From: Nitrosomonas sp.
Lineage (GTDB): Bacteria > Pseudomonadota > Gammaproteobacteria > Burkholderiales > Nitrosomonadaceae
Reading direction: 5' to 3'
NCBI GenBank assembly: GCA_019745325.1
Contig: JAIETK010000011.1
Location: forward strand, 90,811-154,810
Length of the DNA stretch: 64,000 nucleotides
In this document: in pieces, positions 46,371 through 48,159 of the stretch
Numbering within the stretch: the stretch's first letter is position 1
Layout of the letters: every line of letters begins with the position of its first letter
Program-made: the position numbers and the translations under genes
The notes under the pieces: generated by a model
What the model saw: only the letters and a program-made list of their open reading frames with translations
Told to the model about the DNA's origin: nothing
The model's database searches: none

Positions 46371-47402
<1,032 letters not shown>

Positions 47403-47446
47403 CTAAGAACGGGGAACTAATTTTATCATTTTATCCTCTTATTTAC

Positions 47447-47550
47447 GGACAATCTTGATCGTCCCCCTGTCTTTCCTCCCTGAGACAGGGCCTTAAGTGA
47501 TATTAAGGCGGTTCCCCCGGTTTTATTCCCCTTTAACCGGGGTTTTTTTT
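47447..47550 (+). ncRNA. Candidate structured small RNA between hemB and engB
   Basis: On the strand opposite to both neighbours three hairpins lead into an intrinsic terminator. GGAC (47447-47450) pairs with GTCC (47461-47464). CCCTGTCT (47465-47472) pairs with AGACAGGG (47483-47490) around the loop TTCCTCCCTG. CCTTAA (47491-47496) pairs with TTAAGG (47503-47508). The terminator stem CCCCGGTT/AACCGGGG is followed by eight T. The loops expose CCUCC and UCCCC, complementary to Shine-Dalgarno sequences. From memory, a family called Betaproteobacteria toxic small RNA has a similar C-rich form, possibly at this same locus; I cannot confirm a match. A weak -10 (TATCAT 47424 or TATCCT 47432) is the only promoter hint, so the 5' end is approximate. 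Confidence 0.72.
47515..47550 (+). terminator. Intrinsic terminator of the candidate small RNA
   Basis: CCCCGGTT (47515-47522) pairs with AACCGGGG (47535-47542) around a 12-base loop, followed by T8 (47543-47550). The U-run is on the plus strand only; the minus strand has A8 ahead of the hairpin and no U-tail, so it does not serve engB. This is the main evidence that something is transcribed rightward here. Confidence 0.88.
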
Positions 47551-47562
47551 AAGAAGTAACAG

Positions 47563-48159
47563 TTACTTGTCATCAAGCCATCCATTTATCACTGCGGATG
47601 CAGTGTCTACCCCGAGGGATGATTGGCTCGAAAATAATTGAACGCTACAATTTGAATAAGTGGTACTGAGAATCATATCTACCTCTCGCAAGGTATTATT
47701 TGCCTGTTGCTTGCTTAGCTTGTCAGCCTTCGTTAACAAGACATGGATGGCTTTTCCTGTTGGAGAAAACCAATTCAACATTTTTATATCCAATTCTTTA
47801 AGAGGATGGCGGATATCCATGATTAATACCAAGCCTTTAAGGGCTTGGCGAGTTTGTAAATAATTTTCTAAAACGCTTTGCCAATGGCGTATCACCGAAG
47901 CTGGAACTTTCGCATAACCGTATCCAGGCAAGTCGACCAGAAATTTTCCTGCACTTATTTGAAAAAAATTGATATGTTGTGTCCTTCCGGGCGTTTTACT
48001 CACAAAAGCCAAGCGATTCTGGTTTGTTAAAGTATTAATCACGCTCGATTTACCCGCATTTGATCGTCCAGCGAATGCTATTTCAATGCTTGTGGATGAA
48101 GGCAAATCCCGCTCTTCGTAGGCAGAAGTAAAAAAAAATGCTCGATGAAACTGGGACAT
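47563..48159 (-). CDS. engB: Ribosome-assembly GTPase EngB/YsxC
   Basis: Small essential GTPase acting in late 50S assembly. The G motifs are visible: P-loop [18 protein letters not shown] (about residue 30), a switch with [23 protein letters not shown] (G3) and [12 protein letters not shown] (G4). Length (198 aa) is normal. It is four bases downstream of coaX and appears to be the last gene of birA-coaX-engB. Confidence 0.96.

Follow-up and report, generated by a model that had tools for sequence, protein, structure and literature searches.

Anti-hemB, or Burkholderia RNA 7 (Rfam RF02837), is a catalogued family of small RNAs (sRNAs) for which no functional study was found in the open-licence literature. 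One listed member, ncS04 of Burkholderia cenocepacia, is 105 nt long with a RACE-confirmed 3' end, shows no significant change across seven conditions in Table 2 of the report that lists it, and is stated there, citing others, to bind Hfq (PMC5688073). Anti-hemB also appears in Table 2 of PMC3521395, and the available parts of a study on effects in E. coli do not include it among the RNAs tested (PMC11722255). The report on ncS04 also covers ncS27, an RF02278 RNA (Betaproteobacteria toxic small RNA) with CU-rich stretches, over-production of which attenuates growth (PMC5688073). ErsA of Pseudomonas is sigma-22 dependent (PMC8395346, PMC7565897), and specific mRNAs have been reported as targets of both ErsA and sX13 of Xanthomonas (PMC8395346, PMC3771888). 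The polA locus is shared by sX13, Spot 42, and alpha-r7, and the question of whether this extends to other bacteria has been raised (PMC3771888). No link of anti-hemB to ErsA, sX13, or Spot 42 was found in the available text of the open-licence PMC literature; in the excerpts of PMC5688073, Spot 42 is mentioned only as an example of an RNA accumulating under nutrient stress.

We analyzed a 64-kb stretch of DNA (the window) that carries an RNA of this kind in the gap between hemB and engB. The features of the locus are as follows.

46371..47378, minus strand: hemB (porphobilinogen synthase), the divergent neighbor (ORF; protein identity)
47413..47419, plus strand: sigma-E-type -35 element GGAACTA, one letter off GGAACTT (sequence; relatives)
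47437..47441, plus strand: sigma-E-type -10 element TCTTA, 17 nt after the -35 element (sequence; relatives have TCTTA, TCTGA, or TCATA)
47447..47464, plus strand: probable transcription start and weak 5' stem GGAC/GUCC (RNA fold; a start at about 47447 is implied by the promoter)
47464..47550, plus strand: anti-hemB sRNA core, RF02837 model positions 1-81 (65.5 bits against a gathering score of 49.5)
47466..47489, plus strand: hairpin 1, with arms CCUGUCU (47466-47472) and AGACAGG (47483-47489) and the anti-Shine-Dalgarno-like loop UUCCUCCCUG (47473-47482) (fold; the stem covaries and the loop is nearly invariant)
47490..47509, plus strand: hairpin 2, with GCCUUAA (47490-47496), a loop (47497-47502), and UUAAGGC (47503-47509) (fold; double changes at 8/8 pairs in relatives)
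47515..47550, plus strand: intrinsic terminator with a UUCCCC loop, made up of stem CCCCGGUU (47515-47522), loop UUAUUCCCCUUU (47523-47534), AACCGGGG (47535-47542), and T8 (47543-47550) (fold; double changes at 8/9 pairs in alignment A6 and 9/9 in A7)
47563..48159, minus strand: engB/ysxC/yihA (GTPase), the convergent neighbor (ORF; 51% identity over 194 amino acids to the E. coli yihA region)

The plus strand from 47447 to 47552 folds at -39.3 kcal/mol, compared to a mean of -24.9 for dinucleotide shuffles (z -4.48), and none of 200 shuffles folds as well; the minus strand of the RNA segment also beats every shuffle, with a milder z of -3.30. An earlier note on this DNA had described three hairpins and a T8 terminator on the plus strand, with no protein gene there and both neighbors on the minus strand. 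The fold resolves this into a weak 5' stem, two strong hairpins, and the terminator, and the ORF listing holds no plus-strand ORF of 30 or more amino acids overlapping 47447 to 47550. The terminator is missing from the list of a consensus terminator scan because its 12-nt loop exceeds the scan's 8-nt loop limit. The probable 5' end lies about 69 nt past the hemB start codon, with the RNA divergent from hemB and convergent with engB. The note called the RNA antisense-oriented; its complement would occur in a message only if a single transcript spanned engB, the gap, and hemB. The HemB protein is 78% identical to that of Nitrosomonas sp. Nm132, 79% to that of Nitrosospira briensis, and 84% to one partial MAG match, which points to a Nitrosomonas-like host.

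RF02837 is the only Rfam family above its cut-off within the window, where it matches the RNA over its full length, and our own covariance models score the locus at 69.1 bits (R2) and 59.3 bits (R3). With a score above gathering, a position between hemB and engB, and a CUCCCUG loop on covarying stems, the RNA is an ordinary member of an already catalogued family, and its existence is therefore not news. The earlier note sensed the kind of RNA and misfiled the family: it had named RF02278, whose model gives the RNA 18.0 bits (cut-off, 50), and membership is rejected (the best RF02278 match in this genome, elsewhere, reaches 33.4 bits and is also under the cut-off). The Rfam search that it proposed thus returned a catalogued family, although a different one. 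Its view of a conserved regulatory RNA agrees with the RF02837 score, the covariation, the near-invariant CUCCCUG, and the transcription of the homologue ncS04 (PMC5688073), and CCUCC-type sequence is displayed as it described, by UUCCUCCCUG in hairpin 1 and by UUCCCC in the terminator loop. It missed the name of the family, the occurrence of relatives between polA and engB, and the sigma-E-type promoter motif. RNAs of RF02278 (ncS27 and the related S17) do share unpaired CU-rich stretches complementary to ribosome-binding sites (PMC5688073), but they are double-hairpin RNAs at other loci.

The models of ErsA (RF01719, also Pseudomon-1) and Spot 42 (RF00021) are absent from the window matches and have no match in the organism's own genome (G000); RF00021 likewise has none in any of 274 genomes of the class, and E. 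coli gives a match as the positive control. A second own-genome match, at C2:106699 (L002:1501-1599; 29 bits with RF02837, 33.4 bits with RF02278, a terminator-like region), was rejected because R3 matches only the window locus in G000 and the hairpin loops, judged by eye, are not CCUCC-type. Compared to anti-hemB as represented by ncS04, the window RNA has the same full-length model, the hemB-engB gap occupied by most matches, and the same hairpins, terminator, and CUCCCUG loop. It differs in hairpin 1, which is CCUGUCU/AGACAGG rather than the usual CCCGCU/AGCGGG, and in its upstream sigma-E-type promoter, which two Burkholderia copies that were examined do not have.

Within the window's order, which we take to be Burkholderiales (class Gammaproteobacteria, both in the GTDB sense), RF02837 scores above cut-off in 104 of 150 genomes and matches at E <= 1e-3 in 120. 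Matches in this order or in loci fetched by HemB protein are called beta here, and class matches outside the order are called gamma. Eighty loci fetched by HemB form a sample unbiased by the RNA, which is present in 40 of them (41 matches); EngB is also detected within the fetched DNA at 27 of these 40 loci, compared to 3 of the 40 loci without the RNA. Among 148 scored matches (matches rather than genomes, as the same genome may recur between sets), HemB is directly upstream and divergent in 124, and 102 of these also have EngB downstream on the opposite strand. The others have EngB upstream in the same orientation, with HemB not detected in the fetched DNA (15), adjoin neither (6), or have EngB only, downstream or overlapping (3).

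Covariation was assessed in A6 (the window and HemB-fetched loci, 41 distinct rows) and A7 (76 distinct rows). As the earlier note had anticipated for an alignment of relatives, compensatory changes are widespread: two-sided changes occur at 21 of 23 pairs in A6 and 22 of 23 in A7, with 97.7% and 97.3% of cells pairing, respectively, in alignments whose fitting to the structure favors it. Sliding the partners by one column lowers pairing to 47 to 59% in the two alignments, and 0 of 500 shuffles, which leave relatedness in place, attain any of five covariation measures. The stem of hairpin 1 varies with compensation, and the CUCCCUG loop columns carry the full 2.0 bits in A6 and 1.8 to 2.0 bits in A7. 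In 115 of 118 beta copies and 54 of 77 gamma copies, the initial 35 nt include CUCCCUG. A loop kept more tightly than its compensating stem suits an RNA that pairs in trans, and from its complementarity to GGGAG we infer that the partner is a Shine-Dalgarno sequence.

Several beta loci depart from the usual arrangement. Nitrosospira briensis has two tandem copies inside the hemB-engB gap (L035:2195-2411), the second of which follows a GTTGTTGTTGTC-like spacer and has no sigma-E-type motif. Copies in two other beta genomes (L190:1379-1472 and L191:1361-1454) have neither HemB nor EngB in the fetched stretch and carry a CCCC-rich hairpin 2 loop, like gamma RNAs. At a rearranged locus (L014:826-2560), the sRNA lies behind a co-oriented engB and ahead of two ORFs that by eye resemble response regulators.

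Beyond the order, matches to the family recur beside engB. RF02837 matches 124 of 274 class genomes, 14 of them above cut-off; two of each (G000 and G049) belong to the window's order, leaving 122 genomes outside it. Weak matches alone prove little, since sub-cut-off matches also occur in 3 of 14 control genomes, and position decides. Placement was counted in 116 of the 122 genomes, with one row each plus two second rows. EngB is among the matches listed for 70 of the 116, and in 54 of these 70 the distance from the RNA to EngB is no more than 1 kb, with the two convergent in 50 and co-oriented in 4; in the remaining 16, the RNA is on another contig (14) or distant on the same one (2). For the other 46 genomes, EngB is not among the matches listed and the RNA was not placed. 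Of the 68 gamma loci fetched, 39 are flanked by a co-oriented PolA upstream and an opposing EngB downstream, 15 have only EngB so placed, 6 only PolA, 2 an inverted order, and 6 neither, in a set of which 40 loci were chosen for adjoining EngB (L254 to L293, convergent except L257 and L293, which lie behind EngB on the same strand) and only L225 to L252 were unselected for position. The usual order is polA -> sRNA -> <- engB in gammas and hemB <- sRNA -> <- engB in betas. PolA was not found in the fetched flanks of beta loci L003 to L193; the window has hemB there instead.

All 77 gamma matches of R2, some of them not beside engB, make up alignment A8, in which double changes occur at 23 of 23 pairs. 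The model R3 was built from A8 only. In a search of 71 sources (378 kb), it scores the window at 59.3 bits (E 2e-9), and the runner-up among the 70 controls, at 20.1 bits and E 0.13, is not significant. Matches between the groups are reciprocal: RF02837 finds the gamma RNAs, and the gamma-only R3 finds the window. R3 matches 133 of 274 class genomes; where EngB is among the matches listed (149 genomes), at least 64 have an R3 match within 1 kb, a count that includes R3 training loci, and 69 have no listed R3 match. At 20 engB loci (L294 to L313) from genomes mostly without an RF02837 match, R3 finds slot RNAs with E < 1e-3 in 4 (L295, L302, L305, and L307). A search of the phylum gave R3 matches in 9 of 190 genomes, two of them outside the class at 36.0 and 36.5 bits; neither PolA nor EngB was found beside the matches of these two or of L341 and L342 within the class.

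The gene is repeated at some gamma loci. Genome G319 has four tandem copies in one engB slot (L264:1847-2587), and several nearby matches also occur in G410, G409, G298, G255, G296, G276, G389, and G388. In G170, two such RNAs without adjoining PolA or EngB (L333:1513-1874) both have an upstream sigma-E-type motif. The sRNA of G279 has a c-di-GMP-I riboswitch (77.9 bits) nearby (L235:2037-2121).

The main evidence for a link to ErsA is the position and overlap of the matches to the ErsA model. RF01719 matches 10 of 274 class genomes, and all 10 matches adjoin polA and/or engB. The sole match above cut-off (G310) has PolA upstream, and EngB adjoins each of the nine weak ones (29 to 37 bits), with PolA next to seven of them as well; six of the weak ones overlap RF02837 rows in gamma genomes. 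ErsA resembles the window RNA or its relatives in its polA linkage, C-rich loops, sigma-E/sigma-22-type promoter, and model overlap with RF02837 at six places, but its direct match is weak and its 5' part differs. With R3, ErsA scores 25.7 bits and the two sX13 loci score 27.8 and 27.7 bits, values that prove nothing alone because L331, a low-complexity C-run without PolA or EngB, scores alike (27.9 bits). The sX13 model (RF02232) matches 12 of 274 class genomes; the two matches above cut-off are beside PolA and not EngB, and five of the ten weak ones are beside PolA or EngB while five are not. Like the window RNA, sX13 has three stems and C-rich loops, which act on G-rich motifs (PMC3771888), and it is sited downstream of polA as the gamma relatives are; it differs in that the sigma-E motif is not seen, the two above-cut-off genomes place it away from engB, and its R3 score is weak. 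Spot 42 (spf) is alike in position only, filling the E. coli polA -> sRNA -> <- yihA(engB) slot, but it has neither CCUCC-type loops nor a sigma-E motif, and homology is unsupported (R3 16.2 bits, E 0.22). These comparisons suggest a kinship of the window RNA with Pseudomonas ErsA and possibly also with Xanthomonas sX13.

Sigma-E (AlgU) promoters have a consensus of which GAACTT-N14-19-TC[TAG] is one form. With this strict pattern, motifs were counted in upstream stretches, leaving out duplicates and stretches under 100 nt, and compared to 200 first-order shuffles. The motif is present in 58 of 144 beta stretches, a set that includes top-scoring matches (A2), compared to a mean of 1.5 and a maximum of 6 in shuffles and 0 on the opposite strand, and in 42 of 77 gamma stretches, compared to a mean of 0.6, a maximum of 3, and 1 on the opposite strand; related copies are not independent in either count. 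GAACTT starts mostly 42 to 51 nt before the match in betas and 46 to 60 nt in gammas. The window itself has GGAACTA-N17-TCTTA (47413-47441), with GAACTA 50 nt before the match, and fails the strict pattern. The strict motif stands 49 to 51 nt before the match in Nitrosomonas Nm132 (L034), Nitrosospira (L035), and G015 (L116), copies from Sideroxydans, Gallionella, and other relatives have GGAACTA as the window does, and by eye four loci of the same genus (L114 to L117) read GGAACT followed by T, A, or G. The start implied by the promoter, about 47447, coincides with the left border given in the earlier note. The genome also has an RpoE equivalog (319 bits against 236), with an ORF beside it that by eye looks like an anti-sigma factor.

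The motif is not universal. Even a relaxed form occurs in only 22 of 41 HemB-fetched copies, four of which (Paraburkholderia) have it at another distance and were not counted, and is absent from the other 19, among them Burkholderia, Cupriavidus, Variovorax and other Comamonadaceae, three Gallionellaceae, and the second Nitrosospira copy. Upstream of four Variovorax copies (L066, L077, L083, and L100), TTGAAA-like or TTGATC-like sequences and TTAAATT are seen by eye instead, which suggests a promoter swap. The ErsA locus carries the motif, as expected of a sigma-22-dependent RNA, and the strict motif is missing at the sX13 and Spot 42 loci.

By analogy with sigma-E sRNAs, the targets would likely be messages for envelope proteins. 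Candidate sites were sought with the pattern CAGGGAGG-N3-12-ATG in five genomes of the genus, giving 10 (G000), 4 (G015), 10 (G063), 1 (G107), and 5 (G146) sites, compared to 2, 0, 0, 2, and 1 for the backward pattern. Half of the 10 own-genome sites precede ORFs longer than 250 amino acids, which by eye are ExeA-like, glycosylase-like, Cas8-like, aldehyde dehydrogenase-like, and P450-like. BLASTP among 13 ORFs of at least 40 amino acids from the five genomes found no shared target with this one strict pattern. Loop duplexes at the pattern sites reach -16.1 to -20.0 kcal/mol (among 58 ORFs of the window, the most stable is -10.0), which follows from the choice of sites by complementarity to the loop.

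We consider the RNA most probably to be an anti-hemB-family, ErsA-related, sigma-E-controlled sRNA that masks Shine-Dalgarno sequences in trans, an explanation that we hold with fair confidence. An independent transcript of about 104 nt would run from the sigma-E (RpoE)-type promoter, activated by RpoE, to the intrinsic terminator. The rigid CUCCCUG loop of hairpin 1, assisted by the C-rich terminator loop, would pair with GGGAG-type Shine-Dalgarno sequences, so that the RNA, probably with Hfq, would cover ribosome-binding sites and block translation of a set of mRNAs, likely including those of envelope proteins, under envelope stress. The window RNA, ErsA, and possibly sX13 would then be branches of one sRNA gene that often converges on engB, downstream of polA in gammas and beside hemB in betas.

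The same locus could be read in other ways. It is rather unlikely, in our judgment, that a trans-acting C-rich sRNA is transcribed here by the housekeeping sigma-70, with the sigma-E-type motif a relic or a chance occurrence. The one-letter departure of the window -35 element, the 19 of 41 copies without even the relaxed motif, and the steadiness of ncS04 across conditions (PMC5688073, Table 2) speak for this reading, but the strict motif in L034, L035, and L116 stands within a nucleotide of the spacing of the window variant, and GGAACTA itself recurs in the Sideroxydans and Gallionella copies. That the RNA is a cis-antisense regulator of hemB or engB, pairing with a read-through message or interfering with the hemB promoter, is improbable. 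HemB is indeed directly upstream and divergent in 124 of 148 scored matches, and an engB-hemB cotranscript, if made, would contain the complement of the RNA. However, the RNA starts past the hemB start codon, 15 of the 148 matches sit behind a co-oriented engB where the fetched DNA shows no HemB, PolA takes the upstream place on the same strand in 45 of 68 fetched gamma loci, and an invariant loop in variable, compensating stems is not what simple antisense pairing would call for.

Least credible, and in our view very improbable, is a decoy or ribosome-directed RNA that lowers translation globally because CUCCCUG mimics the 16S anti-Shine-Dalgarno sequence, or whose loop binds a protein. The anti-Shine-Dalgarno sequence of 16S rRNA is CCUCCUUU. 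The loop resembles it but keeps CUCCCUG instead, which predicts selective GGGAG targets. Growth is attenuated by over-production of the CU-rich RF02278 RNA ncS27 (PMC5688073), as such a decoy might do, but the reported action of ErsA and sX13 is on individual mRNAs (PMC8395346, PMC3771888).

Taking the sigma-E-controlled, trans-acting reading together with the distribution of relatives gives a tentative history, to which we assign slightly less than an even chance. The last common ancestor of beta- and gammaproteobacteria would have had a sigma-E-controlled, Shine-Dalgarno-masking sRNA gene converging on engB, whose descendants would be anti-hemB, ErsA, sX13, and unnamed RNAs of many gamma families, some of them amplified in tandem. 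The stress promoter would have been lost in Burkholderia- and Comamonadaceae-type lineages, and the E. coli slot would now hold Spot 42, by replacement or extreme divergence.

The interest of the locus lies in this wider sRNA link and in the stress promoter, both of which are computational and testable. RNAs described separately in Burkholderia, Pseudomonas, and perhaps Xanthomonas, and previously filed under separate names, are linked by this comparison, which suggests a wider sRNA lineage that often has a stress sigma-factor promoter. For the question raised about the polA locus of other bacteria, our tallies answer yes for many gamma genomes. For the anti-hemB family, the comparison offers a function, which would be the control of envelope stress.
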